Origin: Anaerolineae bacterium
Lineage (GTDB): Bacteria > Chloroflexota > Anaerolineae > JAFGEY01
DNA length: 7,820 bases
Assembly (NCBI GenBank): GCA_016931365.1
Contig: JAFGEY010000089.1
Span: 1 to 7,820 of the forward strand
Direction of reading: 5' to 3'
Of this stretch, positions 261 to 5,511 are shown piece after piece. The notes under the pieces are model-generated. The model was not told the origin of the DNA and searched no databases. It saw only the letters and a program-made list of their open reading frames with translations. Position numbers and translations under genes: made by a program. How positions within the stretch are numbered: position 1 is the first letter of the stretch; each line of letters starts with the position of its first letter.

Positions 261-289
261 TTGCATTCAATTGGAGAATATGCTATAAT
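261..289 (+). promoter_or_regulatory. Extended -10 promoter of the first small membrane protein gene
   Basis: TTGCAT at 261-266 is a weak -35 box. A 17-nt spacer separates it from a perfect TATAAT at 284-289, which is preceded by TG at 281-282 (extended -10). Transcription should begin near 295-297, leaving a leader of roughly 42 nt before the ATG at 338. The surrounding 225-300 is markedly AT-richer than its flanks. The same layout recurs in front of the paralogous gene (1556-1584). Confidence 0.75.
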
Positions 290-337
290 GACCACAGAAT
301 CGGGTATGTTGAGCTTGAGGGCTGAAAGGCGGATCAA

Positions 338-577
338 ATGATTTCAACGGTCACGACAACCACAGTATCAACGGTCACCACCATTGCCCTTGCCGGTTCG
401 TTCTCATTGATCGCCATTCTGACGCTCCTGGCGTTCCTGATTCAAAAAGAGCTTGTTACGACACAGTCGAGTCGCCGGGCGCTGATGCTGGGCCGCGTGC
501 TGAACATCGGCATCGTGCCCCTGTTGATGGGGTTCGCGCTGATTGTCGCTGTACAGGTCGCCCAAGTGTTGCACTGA
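338..577 (+). CDS. Small two-helix membrane protein, 79 aa (copy 1)
   Basis: I do not recognise a named family. The protein has a Ser/Thr-rich N-terminus (MISTVTTTTVSTVTT), a hydrophobic helix at about residues 16-36, a polar and basic loop (QKEL...SSRR, about 36-50) and a second helix at about 54-76, so it is probably a membrane hairpin. It starts at ATG 338 with GAAAGG at 324-329 as ribosome site. It aligns without gaps to the 79-residue product of 1635-1874: about 50 of 79 residues are identical, including MISTVTTTT, AILTLLA and RVLNIGIVPLL. In the first nine residues 7 of the 8 codons after the start use different synonymous codons, which is good evidence that selection acts on the protein. 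It has its own promoter and terminator and converges on a CPBP protease gene 79 nt downstream. Function is unknown; a partner or substrate of that protease is a guess from the conserved pairing. Confidence 0.85.
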   Translation: MISTVTTTTVSTVTTIALAGSFSLIAILTLLAFLIQKELVTTQSSRRALMLGRVLNIGIVPLLMGFALIVAVQVAQVLH

Positions 578-604
578 GCGCCCGTCCGTTCGCCGCTCGT
601 TCGA

Positions 605-633
605 GGCTGTGGGATTTTTCCACAGCCTTTTTT
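605..633 (+). terminator. Rho-independent terminator of small gene copy 1
   Basis: A perfect 8-bp stem (GGCTGTGG 605-612 with CCACAGCC 620-627) encloses a 7-nt loop and is followed by six T at 628-633. It lies 27 nt after the small gene's stop. The opposite strand has no T-run after the hairpin, so the terminator serves the plus-strand transcript only. It ends about 24 nt from the convergent protease stop codon. Confidence 0.9.
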
Positions 634-656
634 GTTGCCGGACGCCGGGGGGAGCG

Positions 657-1484
657 CTACCCGCCGAACCACGGCAGAAACGGCATCACCAAAAAGAGGA
701 CGATGTTGGTGATGCCGTGCGCGAACGTGACGCCCACGATCGAGCGCGTGCGCTCGGCGGCCCAGCCGAAAAAAAGCGCCACCGCAAAGACAAAGAAAAC
801 GTCTACCAGCGACTTGTAGCCCACGTGCAGGATGGCAAACAACGCGGCCACATAGAGGATTCCCCACCGCCGGCCCAGGACGTCGATCGTCACCCGCTGC
901 ATCACGCCACGAAAGATCAATTCTTCCTCAAAGCCGGTGCTCACCAGGAGAATCAGCGCCGGCAGCCAGACCGCCGCCCAGGTCAGGCCCGGCGCGAGCG
1001 GGGCCGGGACCAAGATCGCATACTCGACAGCGCCGAGGAGCAGGCCGGTGGATGCGATGCCCAATTGAGCCAGCCCTTTGCGCCGGGTGAGTCCCATATC
1101 CTGCGCGTTGAGGCCAAGCACGCGCGCCATGACCAAGGTTGCCACAAAGAGGGGCGCGCTCACGATCAGGTACCAGTACAGGATTGGAAAACCGGCCAGC
1201 GGCAGGGACAGGCTGAGCAGCCGAATGAGCGGCGCAAAAGCCAGGCTGAGCAGCAGCTTGTGGGCGGGACGCTCCCGGGCAAGCGCCGTGTGGATCAGGA
1301 GAGTTGCCAGCAAAATACTGTGCAGTACCAGACCGGCTCGCGGCTCCACCAACGCGGTGAGCACTTCGGCTACGCTTAGCGCCGCCAGGTACGCCAGGGC
1401 CAGATAGAGATCTGACGAACGAGCGGGAGATATTGCCGGGCTGTCTGGGGTAAGAGACAATAGATTGCCCTCGGTGGTTGTCAT
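657..1484 (-). CDS. CPBP-family intramembrane metalloprotease (copy 1)
   Basis: This is a polytopic membrane protein of the CPBP/Abi (CAAX protease and bacteriocin-processing) family, glutamate-dependent proteases of the Rce1 type that cut or process peptides in the membrane. With the start at 1484 it has 275 residues. All three family motifs are present: EExxxR (E187, E188, R192), FxxxH (F216, H220) and HxxxN (H256, N260). Hydrophobic helices fill about residues 26-270. I chose ATG 1482-1484 because GGAGC (1494-1498) lies 9 nt before it; the upstream ATG at 1503-1505 (7 residues longer) has no ribosome site. The gene converges with the small-protein gene at 338-577 and is a clear paralogue of the protease at 2065-3150 (shared blocks such as FAPLIRL/LAPLIRL, ELIFRG, MQR and the TRSI.GVT.AHG motif), but it lacks that protein's N-terminal TPR-like domain. 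Family assignment is sure; substrate unknown. Confidence 0.92.
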   Translation of the reverse strand: MTTTEGNLLSLTPDSPAISPARSSDLYLALAYLAALSVAEVLTALVEPRAGLVLHSILLATLLIHTALARERPAHKLLLSLAFAPLIRLLSLSLPLAGFPILYWYLIVSAPLFVATLVMARVLGLNAQDMGLTRRKGLAQLGIASTGLLLGAVEYAILVPAPLAPGLTWAAVWLPALILLVSTGFEEELIFRGVMQRVTIDVLGRRWGILYVAALFAILHVGYKSLVDVFFVFAVALFFGWAAERTRSIVGVTFAHGITNIVLFLVMPFLPWFGG

Positions 1485-1499
1485 CGTTACGCTGCTCCG

Positions 1500-1514
1500 A
1501 TTCATTGCATGAAT
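1500..1514. promoter_or_regulatory. Dyad ATTCAT-TGC-ATGAAT before protease copy 1
   Basis: A perfect 6-bp inverted repeat with a 3-nt centre lies 16-30 nt upstream of the chosen protease start, in the divergent intergenic region between protease copy 1 and small gene copy 2. It overlaps the alternative ATG at 1503-1505. It could be an operator, but a dyad this short can arise by chance. I found no convincing -35/-10 pair for the protease itself. Confidence 0.25.
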
Positions 1515-1555
1515 AAATTGTTACTAAAATGAAATGGTCTCGCTGATTGCGCCCA

Positions 1556-1584
1556 TTGCCAGAGCGCCTGAGTCATGATACACT
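1556..1584 (+). promoter_or_regulatory. Extended -10 promoter of the second small membrane protein gene
   Basis: TTGCCA at 1556-1561 matches five of six consensus -35 bases. A 17-nt spacer leads to TACACT at 1579-1584, preceded by TG at 1576-1577. The layout, and the distance from the -10 box to the start codon (50 nt), nearly match the promoter of copy 1 (48 nt). This placement puts the in-frame ATG at 1575 upstream of the expected transcript start near 1590, and so favours the GTG at 1635 as the true start. Confidence 0.6.
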
Positions 1585-1634
1585 TGGATCAGAGATCTGG
1601 TTTCGTCCAGAGAGTGGAAGAAAGGCTCATTGCA

Positions 1635-1874
1635 GTGATATCAACCGTTACAACCACGACCATTTCTATCGTCACCACGCTTTCGCTTGCCGGGTCGTTG
1701 GCCATAGTCGCCATCCTCACCCTCCTGGCGTTGTTAATTCATAAAGAATTGACGACCGCCTCCCACAAGCGCACGGCCCGGATCTTGAGCCGCGTGCTCA
1801 ACATCGGCATCGTGCCGCTGCTGGCCGTTTTCACCTTCATCGTCGTGGTCAAGGTCGTCGCCGCACTCCAATAG
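1635..1874 (+). CDS. Small two-helix membrane protein, 79 aa (copy 2)
   Basis: This is a paralogue of the product of 338-577 with the same length, the same Thr-rich start (MISTVTTTTISIVTT), a helix at about 16-36, a basic loop (HKEL...HKRTAR) and a second helix at about 54-76. The start is taken as GTG 1635, because there the protein aligns residue for residue with copy 1, GAAAGG (1620-1625) lies 9 nt before it, and the proposed promoter excludes the longer ATG-1575 form. The RVLNIGIVPLL block is nearly identical even in DNA (30 of 33 bases), while the N-terminal block is conserved only as protein. The gene converges on the second CPBP protease (stop at 2065) just as copy 1 converges on the first. 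Function is unknown; I do not recognise a domain. Confidence 0.85.
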   Translation: MISTVTTTTISIVTTLSLAGSLAIVAILTLLALLIHKELTTASHKRTARILSRVLNIGIVPLLAVFTFIVVVKVVAALQ

Positions 1875-1899
1875 CGCGCCAACTCTGACCAGGAACCAG

Positions 1900-1929
1900 G
1901 CCGTGGGAGCAACTATCCCACGGCTTTTT
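1900..1929 (+). terminator. Rho-independent terminator of small gene copy 2
   Basis: A perfect 9-bp stem (GCCGTGGGA 1900-1908 with TCCCACGGC 1916-1924) has a 7-nt loop and is followed by five T (1925-1929). It lies 25 nt after the stop codon, the same position as the terminator of copy 1. The stem cores resemble each other (GCTGTGG and GCCGTGG), which fits descent from one ancestral terminator with compensating changes. Confidence 0.9.
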
Positions 1930-1967
1930 GCGTTTAATCTCAATGCCCGTGAGCGAATTCAATTTGC

Positions 1968-2061
1968 ACAGGATTGGCTGGATTTTCAGGATGAACAGGA
2001 TCAAGCGTTTTTTAACATATACAAAATTGCGCAAATATCCTGTAAATCCTGTTCATCCTGT
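1968..2061. repeat. 9-nt-periodic palindromic repeat (ACAGGATnn / ATCCTGTnn)
   Basis: The left arm holds four units at a strict 9-nt spacing starting at 1968, 1977, 1986 and 1995 (ACAGGAT, GCTGGAT, TCAGGAT, ACAGGAT). The right arm holds three inverted ATCCTGT units at 2037, 2046 and 2055. The 15-mer at 1987-2001 is the exact reverse complement of 2046-2060, so the whole can fold into a long hairpin with an AT-rich loop. From memory, repeats of this ATCCTGT type are scattered between genes in many unrelated bacteria. The element ends 3 nt before the stop codon of protease copy 2, and the equivalent spot in module 1 lacks it, so it was probably inserted after duplication or lost from the other copy. 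Confidence 0.8.
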
Positions 2062-2064
2062 CGT

Positions 2065-3150
2065 TCATTTGCCGGACTGCGCCAGCGCCGGCATGATCAA
2101 AAAGAGCATCACATTGGTCAGTCCGTGCGCGAGCGTGACGCCCCAAATGCTGCGCGTTTTGTTCACGGCCCAAGAAAAGATCAAGCCCACCGCAAAGACA
2201 AAAGGAATGTCCCACTGCGACGCATGGCCCATGTGCAGCATGGCAAAAAGCCCGGATACATACACCAGGCCCGGATTCCCCAGCACTTCGGTTGCCGCAC
2301 GCTGCATGATCCCGCGAAAGATCAACTCTTCGACCAGGCCGGTACAAATCAGCAGGATCAGCGCCGGAAGCAACAGGTCTCCCCAGGTGGCGGCCTTGAC
2401 CAGGGGGGCCGGCCGCAGCAACCGGTATTCGACGTAGCCAAAGAGCAGCCCGCTGCTGCCAATCAGCATCTGCGGCAGAATCTGTGGCCGGTTCAGGCCG
2501 ATCTGCCGGGGAGTGAACCCGGCCAGGCGCGCGATCAGCCAGGTTGCCGCCATCAGGGGCACACTGGTGATCGGATACCAGTAGATCAGTGGGAGGCCGG
2601 ACAGGGGCATGGTGAGGCTGACCAGCCGGATCAAGGGCGCCAGCGCCAGGCTGAGAAAAAATTTGTAAAAGGGACGCCGCCAGATCAAGGCCGCATGGAG
2701 AATCAAGACGATCAGCAACGCGCTATATCCCCACAACCCGATCTGAGGATCGATCACCAGGGTAAGAAACTCGGCCCCGGTCAGGGCAAACAGATAGCCC
2801 AGGGCCAGCAGGAAAGGGCGATCGCGGACCGCCGCAATCCATGTCCGGGCCGCCTTGCTCCGCGCCGCGCCGCTTTGCCGCCCGCTCAGCGGAGAGCGGG
2901 CCTGGCCCGGCCCCAGCGCCTCCAGCCCCCGCCGGGCCAGCGCGTTGCGCCGGTTGATGGACAGCGCTTGAGCCAGGCAAAAACGCCGTTCCTCGTCTAC
3001 GTCTAAGGTATCGGCCAGCCACAGCCAGCCTCGCTCCGAGCCGGGGTCGTCATGGAGAACATCCTCCAGCAGGCGGCGCGCCGCGACCTTGCGCCCGGCC
3101 CGGAGCGCGGCAACGGCCTGCGCCAGCCGCGCGTCTTTAACTCCCGGCAT
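2065..3150 (-). CDS. CPBP-family intramembrane metalloprotease with N-terminal TPR-like domain (copy 2)
   Basis: The protein has 361 residues from ATG 3148-3150. Residues about 4-80 form two or three helical TPR-like repeats (RRLLEDVLHDDP..., WLWLADTL...DEERRFCLAQALSIN), a soluble module that usually binds proteins. A Gly/Ala/Arg/Ser linker (about 80-108) leads into a polytopic membrane domain with the CPBP motifs EExxxR (E274, E275, R279), FxxxH (F302, H306) and HxxxN (H342, N346). These are the glutamate-type active-site residues of Rce1-like proteases. The membrane part is a paralogue of 657-1484. The start was chosen because the TPR-like domain begins just after it; upstream in-frame ATGs lie inside the MITE-like repeat, and only a weak CAGGG precedes the chosen ATG. 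The gene converges on small gene copy 2. Substrate unknown; the TPR-like domain may recruit a partner. Confidence 0.9.
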   Translation of the reverse strand: MPGVKDARLAQAVAALRAGRKVAARRLLEDVLHDDPGSERGWLWLADTLDVDEERRFCLAQALSINRRNALARRGLEALGPGQARSPLSGRQSGAARSKAARTWIAAVRDRPFLLALGYLFALTGAEFLTLVIDPQIGLWGYSALLIVLILHAALIWRRPFYKFFLSLALAPLIRLVSLTMPLSGLPLIYWYPITSVPLMAATWLIARLAGFTPRQIGLNRPQILPQMLIGSSGLLFGYVEYRLLRPAPLVKAATWGDLLLPALILLICTGLVEELIFRGIMQRAATEVLGNPGLVYVSGLFAMLHMGHASQWDIPFVFAVGLIFSWAVNKTRSIWGVTLAHGLTNVMLFLIMPALAQSGK

Positions 3151-3223: not shown

Positions 3224-3335
3224 GTCATTGCGAGGGCGTTTTTTGCCCGAAGCAATCTCCAAGAACGATAGTTTATGATAGTTTGGAGATTGCTTCGGTG
3301 GGTGAGCAAAGAACGCTCACCTACCTCGCAATGAC
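3224..3335. mobile_element. MITE-like nested inverted repeat (GTCATTGCGAGG ends), 112 bp
   Basis: The outer 12-bp ends GTCATTGCGAGG (3224-3235) and CCTCGCAATGAC (3324-3335) are perfect inverted repeats. Inside, 16 bp at 3247-3262 pair perfectly with 3283-3298 (CCGAAGCAATCTCC core). A further hairpin pairs 3297-3307 with 3315-3325 with one G-T wobble. There is no coding capacity. From memory, repeats with this 'CATTGCGAGG...GAAGCAATCTCC' signature occur between genes in many bacterial phyla, so this is likely a non-autonomous dispersed element. No clear target-site duplication is visible. It lies between the LCP gene and protease copy 2, which read in the same direction, and its hairpins could affect read-through. 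Confidence 0.85.
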
Positions 3336-3389: not shown

Positions 3390-4478
3390 CTATTGGATGA
3401 ACCTGGTGTCAATAAACTGGATCACCTGCTCCGTCTTGGGCACGAGCACGCGGTCCGGCCCTACCGTCACCAGATCGGCGCCCAGTTCCAGGTACACGAT
3501 GGACACATCCGGCTCTTGCAGCAGGCAGGCCAGGCTGAGAAACTGGTTGACGTTGAGGTCGGTGACGACGTCAAGGTAAAACTCGTGCACCAGCGCGGGC
3601 AGTTTGGCCAGCGTGGCCGGACGGGTGAGCTGGGCATACAGCGCCTGGAGCACCTGCTTTTGCCGATCGATGCGATCCCATTCGCTCGGCGACGCATCGC
3701 CGGGCGCCTGGATGATGCGCACATAATCCAGGACGGCCTGGCCATTCAACACCTGCGGCCCGGCGTAAAAATACCCAAATAAGGGCGCGCCGTTCACGTC
3801 GCGCGGCAGGTCGATGGACAGCCCGCCCAGCGCATCAACCATGTCACGAAAGGCCTCTTGCTTGACGCTGATGTACTGATCCGGCGCGAGCCGCAGGTTG
3901 TCGGCCAGCGTCTGGGCAAAGAGGGCGGCGGCATAGGCCATTTTGCGCCGCTCGCTGCCGGCCTTGAGCTGTTTGGCCTGGTAGTAGGCCAGCGTCAGCG
4001 TGGTGGCCTCGATCCTGGCCGGGGCCAACTGCGGCGTGCTCACCCACAGGTCCGGCGGCAGGGCCAGCACGCGCACGGTTTGGGCGTCATAATCCACCTT
4101 GACCAGGCGGATCGCGTCCGCGCCGCGCGGCGGGCGATCCTCCGGCGAGCTTTCCCCCAGCAGCAGCACGATCATGCTGCCCTGTTGGCCGCAGACGCCG
4201 CCGACCCGGGCCGGCGTAGGGGTGGGCGTGGGTGCTATGGCGGTGGCCGTCGAGGTGGCCGCGGCCGGCGGCGCCGTCTGCGTCGCCGTAGCTGCCGGGG
4301 TTGCTGCCGGCGTCGCCGTTGGCAGCATACTGACCGGCGTTGTGGCCGGCGGCGTCGTGGCCGGCGGCGTGACTTTCAGCCGAGGCCCCAACGGGAGGCG
4401 CAACAAGAGCCACACCGCGCCGATAACGAGCACGAGGACGAGCACGACAATCAAGATCGCACGACGAGAGAGTTTCAT
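3390..4478 (-). CDS. LCP (LytR-CpsA-Psr) family protein, variant active site
   Basis: LCP proteins are membrane-anchored enzymes that move lipid-linked glycans onto the cell wall or other surface acceptors. This one has 362 residues. There is a single N-terminal membrane anchor (about 8-27), a disordered Pro/Thr/Ala linker (about 36-92) and an extracytoplasmic LCP domain (about 101-282). Family marks are ADAIRLVKVD (D121), the LPxDLWV block (140-146), ALGGLSIDLP, VLNGQAVLDYVR and the RIDRQ motif (269-273). The 'PRD' arginine is replaced by proline at residue 142 (LPPDLWV). A C-terminal extension (about 283-362) has no recognised domain. ATG 4476-4478 has a strong AAGGAGT site 6 nt upstream. 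The gene lies downstream of DUF1616 and glycosyltransferase genes, which fits glycan attachment. Whether the variant is catalytically active is uncertain. Confidence 0.85.
   Translation of the reverse strand: MKLSRRAILIVVLVLVLVIGAVWLLLRLPLGPRLKVTPPATTPPATTPVSMLPTATPAATPAATATQTAPPAAATSTATAIAPTPTPTPARVGGVCGQQGSMIVLLLGESSPEDRPPRGADAIRLVKVDYDAQTVRVLALPPDLWVSTPQLAPARIEATTLTLAYYQAKQLKAGSERRKMAYAAALFAQTLADNLRLAPDQYISVKQEAFRDMVDALGGLSIDLPRDVNGAPLFGYFYAGPQVLNGQAVLDYVRIIQAPGDASPSEWDRIDRQKQVLQALYAQLTRPATLAKLPALVHEFYLDVVTDLNVNQFLSLACLLQEPDVSIVYLELGADLVTVGPDRVLVPKTEQVIQFIDTRFIQ
4342..4371 (-). repeat. 15-bp tandem duplication in the LCP linker
   Basis: Two adjacent 15-bp units (4342-4356 and 4357-4371) differ only in their last base. 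They encode the repeated PPATT pentapeptide of the Pro/Thr/Ala linker. This is typical of slippage in a disordered spacer and probably only affects its length. Confidence 0.8.
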
Positions 4479-4614: not shown

Positions 4615-5511
4615 TCAGTGTTTGTTGACATTCAGCCATAGTCTTAACAGTCGATAAGGTTGGTCGGTTGCGTCTTTCTGAATGTCACTGAACAGCCGGA
4701 ACTCCACCTGCTGATCTTGCCCCGTCCAGGGCATTGCCCAGGTAACCGGCTGCTCGACCCGCTGTTCGCGGGCCAACTCGAACGGCCCAGCCGCACCGAC
4801 CTGGACTTGCCGGTTTTCCCAAATGTCCACTGCCCATATCTCTACCCGGTAGGTGTGCGCGTTTCGCTCCAGGTTGTGCAATCCCATTGTCACCGAAAGC
4901 ATCTCTCCCGGCGCTGCCTCGCGCGGATACAGCTCCGCCAGGCCCTCCTCGCCCAGAATGTAGAATTCGGTAAAAAAGTCTCCTGGCTTTGGCCGGATGA
5001 CAATTGCAGATGTAGAGATTATAGCCATCACCAACGTCCCGGCCAACACACCATAAAGTACGCGATTGATACGATCTTGGGCGCCCCACCACCCTTTAGG
5101 GTTGATCTTAACATTGATCCCATAACGCGCCTCGGGCGGCAGCCGTTTGCGCCGCCACAGAGCGGCAACTGAAAAGACTGCGATCAGCAGCCCTTCGCCA
5201 ATCACAATAGGCCAGAGCCGGATACCCCAGGGCAGGCGATCCAGGATCAGTGCCAGGGGCGGGATCACGGCGATGCTCAGCCCGAAGGAGAGTGCCCATC
5301 GTTCCGGCCCGTCCAATTCTCCATCTCGGGGAAAGACTGTGGCCTGGAGCGCATAACCCGGCACAAAGAGCACAAAGGTCAGCCCCAGCGCCAGCCGCAC
5401 CATCGGCAGCAGCGCCGGCACGCCCTGTACTTCCGTCGCAATGAGGGCGAGCAGCACCACGCCCAGCGCGGCAATGATCGAGAATTCATTGCGGATTTTC
5501 ACCTGTCCCAT
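4615..5511 (-). CDS. DUF1616 family membrane protein
   Basis: This is a 298-residue membrane protein. Hydrophobic helices lie at about 11-28, 33-57, 71-90, 98-119 and 151-173, followed by an extracytoplasmic beta-rich tail (about 174-298). The tail opens with the family's typical FTEFYILG block (180-187) and a PGEMLSVTMGLHNLE segment. DUF1616 has no established biochemical role, but such proteins are often found beside polysaccharide and glycosylation genes in archaea and Chloroflexota. The start is ATG 5509-5511, where the protein begins MGQVKIRNEF. It lies only 4 nt after the stop of the upstream glycosyltransferase, so translation is probably coupled. The longer open frame reaching 5646 would overlap that gene by more than 100 bases and is rejected. 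The family call is from pattern memory and fairly sure. Confidence 0.82.
   Translation of the reverse strand: MGQVKIRNEFSIIAALGVVLLALIATEVQGVPALLPMVRLALGLTFVLFVPGYALQATVFPRDGELDGPERWALSFGLSIAVIPPLALILDRLPWGIRLWPIVIGEGLLIAVFSVAALWRRKRLPPEARYGINVKINPKGWWGAQDRINRVLYGVLAGTLVMAIISTSAIVIRPKPGDFFTEFYILGEEGLAELYPREAAPGEMLSVTMGLHNLERNAHTYRVEIWAVDIWENRQVQVGAAGPFELAREQRVEQPVTWAMPWTGQDQQVEFRLFSDIQKDATDQPYRLLRLWLNVNKH

Follow-up and report, generated by a model that had tools for sequence, protein, structure and literature searches.

A small two-helix membrane protein and a CPBP-family protease as a candidate two-gene surface system of bacteria and archaea

Results

Two copies of a small-protein/protease gene pair

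We analysed a stretch of 7,820 nucleotides of an Anaerolineae bacterium (contig JAFGEY010000089.1), hereafter the window, whose close relatives, where named, are Anaerolineae or other Chloroflexota. The window carries two consecutive gene pairs, each consisting of a gene for a 79-amino acid (aa) membrane protein, which we call SMALL, and an opposing gene for a protease of the CPBP family. The mostly joint occurrence of this protease and SMALL in scattered bacteria and archaea points, at the level of sequence, to an undescribed cell-surface system.

In the first copy an extended -10 element (TGCTATAAT, positions 281..289, plus strand; a TGnTATAAT pattern recognised by eye, without a listing in the promoter scan) and a Shine-Dalgarno sequence read as GAAAGG (324..329, plus) precede SMALL1 (338..577, plus), a two-helix membrane protein with a Thr-rich N-tail that was delineated from the list of open reading frames (ORFs), pairwise comparison and an alignment of homologues. 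A hairpin scan placed an intrinsic-terminator-like hairpin (603..629, plus) in the interval to CPBP1 (657..1505, minus), a putative Rce1-like intramembrane glutamic protease of 282 aa (or 275 aa, if counted from the following Met; PF02517, 3.1e-16) in which the catalytic residues are present. The second copy repeats this order with an extended -10 element (TGATACACT, 1576..1584, plus; TGnTACACT pattern) that the promoter scan lists including its TG, a GAAAGG read in the sequence (1620..1625, plus), SMALL2 (1635..1874, plus), a hairpin from the same scan, again terminator-like, in the SMALL2/CPBP2 interval (1898..1926, plus) and CPBP2 (2065..3150, minus; 361 aa). The latter combines a TPR-like N-terminal part with the CPBP domain (PF02517, 3.2e-19; TPR_14, 0.0015), every TPR hit lying below the Pfam cut-off. 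The two-copy order that an earlier note on this DNA had described was borne out by re-reading of the sequence and by Pfam.

The mechanical ORF of SMALL2 comprises 99 aa from position 1575, a longer start without support from homologues. As homologues begin with MISTVTT and GAAAGG is located at 1620-1625, we set the start at GTG 1635, which gives a protein of 79 aa and agrees with the alignment. A purine-rich, Shine-Dalgarno-like stretch lies 5' of all nine homologous SMALL starts listed. The window holds six terminator-like sites, a count not raised over the shuffle mean of 6.7, so that the terminator argument rests on the position of the hairpins directly 3' of both small genes and not on the number of sites. 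Both partners are paralogous between the copies, as the note had stated, SMALL1 and SMALL2 sharing 59% identity over 63 aa (E 8e-15) and CPBP1 and CPBP2 53% over 253 aa.

The SMALL family

A protein search with SMALL returned 38 entries, including the two from the window, and a search of genome contigs gave 45 loci, mostly labelled Chloroflexota. The others belong mainly to Bacillota of the Peptococcaceae or Desulfotomaculum type, to Methanobacteriaceae and to Methanosarcinales; named carriers include Desulfotomaculum copahuensis (L028) and Kouleothrix aurantiaca (L030). No Pfam, NCBIfam or PADLOC model scored above its cut-off in the members scanned, the label PF26161 precomputed on one homologue (P0036) was not reproduced by a local Pfam scan, and a fold search with SMALL had no usable match. 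Judged by its sequences, SMALL is an unnamed small-protein family of its own, with a Thr-rich tail, whose carriers have widely differing envelopes.

In an alignment of 37 SMALL rows chosen to span the groups (A4; weak members excluded) five positions, M1, L34, E38, P61 and F66, never vary, while I2, S3, T4, V5, T6, T9, L30, K37, N56 and L62 are almost invariant. STVT forms the head in 55 of 90 paired rows, with variants such as MITTVT, MLSIVT and MISTIT elsewhere, and the head is followed by a Ser/Thr-rich tract of variable length and mixed codons, L014 having 15 Thr in its first 19 residues. Charges were counted in 85 of the 90 paired rows, five without the landmark being dropped; the N-tail contains Lys or Arg in two of these rows, and the loop averages 3.4 such residues. 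By the positive-inside rule the uncharged tail and the charged loop would place both ends outside and the loop inside, and SMALL presumably forms a membrane hairpin with an uncharged, Ser/Thr-rich N-tail outside and a charged loop inside. The AlphaFold2 model is a two-helix hairpin of modest confidence (pLDDT 77, pTM 0.42).

Two records labelled Gammaproteobacteria (L015) and Deltaproteobacteria (L024) carry typical SMALL members. In the protease tree L024 clusters with Bacillota, and G015 is without any PF02517 match; labels or bins look doubtful.

The paired proteases

Both window proteases pass the PF02517 cut-off of 22.4 bits (59.9 and 69.4 bits) and conform to the Rce1 fold. The catalytic residues of CPBP1, E194, E195, R199, H227, H263 and N267 (EExxxR, H and HxxxN), are invariant in the 20 rows of alignment A2. 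Among 90 paired proteases, CPBP2 included, E194 is kept in 88, E195 in 89, R199 in 89, H227 in 84, H263 in 90 and N267 in 88. By residues and PF02517, CPBP1 and CPBP2 are predicted Rce1-like intramembrane proteases.

The CPBP protein paired with SMALL is usually of one distinct subfamily that can be separated from paralogues in the same genome. A profile of CPBP1 relatives, to whose own rows some Chloroflexota members are close and the Bacillota and archaeal members are not, scored 63 of the 70 nearest proteases at 228-426 bits; the low scorers were L053 (34), L054 (174), L056 (111), L057 (115), L059 (123), the truncated L110 (94) and L129 (26). With the same profile, 13 of 20 other CPBP genes from the same genomes gave no match and seven scored 19-97 bits. 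The one archaeal protease scanned for it (L139) has TPR repeats N-terminal to the protease domain.

Adjacency and layout

In a first scan, which covered at most 6 kb on either side of SMALL, CPBP genes were present at 36 of 45 SMALL loci, whereas by chance, with 0 to 15 CPBP genes per genome, one would be expected within 6 kb in 0.66 of 42 genomes. In a wider set of 110 loci, which includes the window, leaves out near-identical archaeal loci and takes two loci from a few genomes, CPBP lies within 6 kb at 82, and of the 79 loci flanked by 3 kb of sequence on either side 64 have it and 15 lack it. Six short loci (L244, L246, L247, L248, L253, L260) that had been chosen on a visible CPBP were excluded from the 110; with them the count is 88 of 116. 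L109-L122 entered the set because no CPBP was seen within 1.5 kb, a bias against adjacency. CPBP is present within a flank of ~1.5 kb at 14 of the 30 short loci L231-L260, and the weak SMALL matches L056, L057 and L059 likewise adjoin CPBP. The neighbour check suggested in the note, whether CPBP stands beside SMALL more often than by chance, thus came out in favour of the pair, and presence in whole genomes (below) matches.

Within 3 kb the layout is convergent at 26 of 36 Chloroflexota loci and at all 14 Methanobacteriota-type loci, whereas 12 of 13 Bacillota pairs run in the same direction with CPBP first; Halobacteriota-type pairs are convergent at six of 11 loci and divergent at four. As the layout varies by lineage (convergent, operon-like, divergent), it is the pair that has been kept and not its arrangement. 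Convergence, which the note had made part of the module, is usual in Chloroflexota and Methanobacteriota-type archaea but does not define the pair.

Joint presence across genomes

Co-occurrence was surveyed in 707 genomes from four groups chosen for holding SMALL, with thresholds of 1e-3 for SMALL (1e-4 in the phylum of G040) and of 1e-25 and 1e-20 for CPBP; only the best candidates were scored (for CPBP the best 10 of up to 27), so that presences may be missed. Pooled, 100 genomes have both families, 12 SMALL only, 11 the CPBP subfamily only and 584 neither. SMALL, the CPBP subfamily and both occur in 22, 20 and 19 of the 249 genomes in the class of G001, in 28, 24 and 22 of 113 in the class of G028, and in 43, 48 and 40 of 196 in the phylum of G040, while in the phylum of G041 (149 genomes) the two are found in the identical 19 genomes. 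Fisher p values for the classes of G001 and G028 and the phyla of G041 and G040 are 2e-24, 6e-16, 2e-24 and 5e-30, kinship being ignored. G306, counted as CPBP-only, has SMALL beside its CPBP by a wider model (L200). The pair is also kept where it is unlinked: the two genes are separated by ~22 kb in G034 and by 47 kb in G369, and they lie on separate contigs in G261 and G088. Some archaeal members of the G040 group have several copies of both families, up to six SMALL and four CPBP genes.

SMALL genes lie in rows of two and three near one CPBP at the archaeal loci L275 and L276, an apparent parallel to the tandem array of the window. A second CPBP gene is located ~2.5 kb past the end of L276.

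Co-divergence and age of the tandem copies

Distances in the SMALL and CPBP trees correlate with r 0.77 (Mantel, 90 rows), compared with a mean of 0.23 and a maximum of 0.55 for shuffles within groups; one row of this set is mispaired (SMALL2 with CPBP1, by the nearest-gene rule) and the tandem copies at L275 and L276 have a protease in common. Taken alone, the Halobacteriota-type rows (n=12) are not informative, with r 0.95 against a shuffle maximum of 0.94. SMALL and protease trees consequently match better than shuffled pairings, the outcome that the note had set as its second check.

SMALL1/CPBP1 and SMALL2/CPBP2 are each closer to relatives in other organisms than to one another. Close relatives are P0006 for SMALL1 and P0041 for CPBP1, whose longest contigs both measure 4,291 bases, and P0002 (89%) for SMALL2 and P0160 (82%) for CPBP2, whose longest contigs both measure 3,499 bases; from these equal lengths P0006 and P0041, and P0002 and P0160, would each share a contig. 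Since the nearest relatives of each pair lie in other organisms, the tandem array is old and its partners are still matched. The note's proposal that the pair was duplicated as a unit and kept fits in so far as the partners stayed matched, but the duplication is old and the trees do not prove a single local event.

Genomic neighbourhood

SMALL neighbourhoods contain surface-glycan and surface-protein genes, often with DUF1616. In the window the pairs are followed by genes for a LytR-CpsA-Psr protein (3390..4478, minus; PF03816, 1.5e-20), an envelope context, and for a DUF1616 protein (4615..5511, minus; PF07760, 2.8e-61), a recurrent neighbour of the pair, and the Pfam scan found two glycosyltransferase genes further along. 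A DUF1616-type gene lies within 6 kb of SMALL at 47 of 110 loci (23 of 48 Chloroflexota, 19 of 29 Bacillota, five of 19 Halobacteriota-type) and a glycosyltransferase cluster at 20 of 48 Chloroflexota and seven of 29 Bacillota loci; SLH, Big_2, PKD/PGF-CTERM, exosortase and nucleotidyl-transferase neighbours were tested as single examples. We consider an envelope role of the SMALL/CPBP pair quite probable.

An accessory role to exosortases or archaeosortases as a general rule found no support over 80 genomes, exosortase genes being present in 12 of 40 pair-positive and seven of 40 pair-negative genomes. An exosortase gene adjoins the pair at the Halobacteriota-type loci L261 and L263 (PF09721 tested) and L266 (by eye), and L261 also has a DUF3485 gene (tested). 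At 11 of 14 Methanobacteriota-type loci (L127-L131, L135-L140) a secreted-looking protein of ~207-262 aa is encoded directly 3' of SMALL; these proteins have a similar C-terminal stretch with one Cys (e.g. PPVLCxLAAGG) and could be a client. A gene for a geranylgeranyl-reductase-like flavoprotein adjoins SMALL at Bacillota loci such as L036, L037 and L109-L113 (one scanned, L111) and lies within 6 kb at 17 of 29 Bacillota loci.

Discussion

SMALL and its CPBP protease are almost certainly functionally paired and dedicated to each other: adjacency, co-occurrence in genomes and tree agreement all support the dedicated pair that the note had called plausible. Our best explanation as a whole, to which we assign a probability of roughly 0.42, is a dedicated two-component membrane module in which the protease cuts SMALL as a surface component. 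CPBP would recognise the outward tail and the hairpin of SMALL and cut it in or beside the membrane, thereby maturing or releasing it, and matured SMALL would be a small surface component in a pathway common with the neighbouring glycosyltransferases, the DUF1616 protein and S-layer-type proteins. In favour of SMALL as a client we count that the SMALL genes of the window carry their own promoter and terminator, and that MrtJ, according to PMC11980579, is a precedent for a CPBP protease with one dedicated target.

Several observations weigh against this explanation. The SMALL alignments show neither a conserved Cys nor any other motif known for processing by CPBP proteases, and SMALL is conserved through both helices, beyond any cut site. 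Its head is not universal, being different and Ser/Ala-rich in L272 and L274-L278, and AlphaFold2 shows the Thr-rich tail as a helix rather than a free tail. H227 is missing in six weak or divergent proteases (L054, L056, L057, L059, L247, L248), and the 12 genomes with SMALL only and the 11 with the CPBP subfamily only have one partner without the other. The numbers of SMALL and CPBP copies are positively correlated (Spearman 0.60, 40 genomes; 66 SMALL and 77 CPBP genes); because of this overall balance and of the second CPBP near L276, the SMALL excess at L275 and L276 is no longer counted for a client, and the failure of the copy-number argument on recount lowered our preference, leaving client and subunit about even, with the client marginally ahead.

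The conservation of both helices and the parallel copy numbers also suit an uncut SMALL that is an obligate subunit or regulator, its hairpin packing on the protease and its outward tail gating or extending the active-site groove, with another surface protein as client; we regard this as a serious candidate, if short of probable. The envelope genes around the pair and the Thr tracts of varying length and mixed codons would also be expected if both proteins served one envelope pathway (S-layer or glycoprotein assembly) without contact, with SMALL, rich in Thr, accepting O-glycans or acting as an envelope spacer, and the protease processing other pathway proteins. This appears unlikely, as DUF1616 is near none of the 14 Methanobacteriota-type loci where CPBP is near all 14, and exosortase genes occur in 12 of 40 pair-positive and seven of 40 pair-negative genomes. 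A new kind of surface-anchoring machine common to bacteria and archaea was also considered, in which a glutamic intramembrane protease would run a sortase-like reaction: CPBP would cleave surface proteins and join them to the outward-facing N-terminus of SMALL, whose Thr-rich hairpin would be both membrane anchor and acceptor. The core members of the family, with a conserved head at the extreme N-terminus and a tether of varying length behind it, fit such an acceptor; we hold this reading to be very improbable. Coincidence or hitch-hiking of two common but unrelated families could draw on the abundance of CPBP genes, but is strongly opposed by the chance estimate and the pooled co-occurrence (kinship ignored), and the CPBP is usually of one subfamily and the link crosses phyla and layouts, which makes this explanation practically negligible.

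Returning to the threonines of SMALL, a threonine attenuator (thrL-like leader) was rejected on the conservation through both helices and the mixed Thr codons, 90 of 280 neighbouring Thr pairs having the same codon where 27% are expected; no threonine operon was seen among the recurrent SMALL neighbours listed. The same mixed codons disfavour slippage or phase variation of the tract.

Among the closest known parallels to the SMALL/CPBP pair are MrtJ with JDVT-CTERM and the myxosortases (MrtX, MrtC, MrtP, MrtS, MrtA), which likewise combine a CPBP-family protease with a PF02517 core, a gene for a dedicated membrane-anchored partner and a surface role. CPBP1 is not one of them by the NCBIfam Mrt models listed, all far below cut-off (MrtJ 40.6 of 75, MrtS 35.7 of 130, Mrt_core 31.6 of 100), and their type of target (invariant Cys, transmembrane helix, basic C-terminus) is unlike SMALL, a two-helix hairpin without invariant Cys or C-terminal sorting tail. 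In plantaricin-type systems, too, a CPBP immunity gene adjoins the gene of a small protein, the bacteriocin. SMALL differs in that its helices and positions are conserved from bacteria to archaea; it has two conserved hydrophobic helices and is not a secreted, diversified peptide. PADLOC matched none of the four window proteins, so that a defence system was rejected and the note's hint at bacteriocin immunity found no support. SagB is a hydrolase. In the SpdC-SagB peptidoglycan release complex (PDB 6u0o) LyrA/SpdC is, according to PMC7387801, without key catalytic residues. From Rce1/MmRce1 CAAX proteolysis (PDB 4cad) the pair differs in that SMALL has no CAAX motif or conserved Cys and the SMALL-paired proteases have additional helices at the N-terminus, some of them also TPR domains.

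The open-licence literature searched contained no description of the pair and no mention of 'MISTVTT', DUF1616 appearing in passing in one paper, and the family libraries searched had no description either, in line with the note's remark that it knew of no described system of this form. SMALL/CPBP is, in our view, a new pair of families whose general kind is known (CPBP protease with dedicated membrane partner) and whose distribution is unusually wide and clean. Prokaryotic CPBP proteases are termed largely unexplored in PMC11980579, and for one subfamily there is now a candidate partner, found in four bacterial and archaeal groups. As this subfamily can be separated from its paralogues, what such proteases act on becomes testable with two genes.

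Two repeats were also seen in the window, a 15-bp inverted repeat (CAGGATGAACAGGAT, 1987-2060) 3' of the second small gene that is REP-like, and a perfect 16-bp intergenic inverted repeat with a 20-bp spacer (3247-3298) that resembles a small repeat element.

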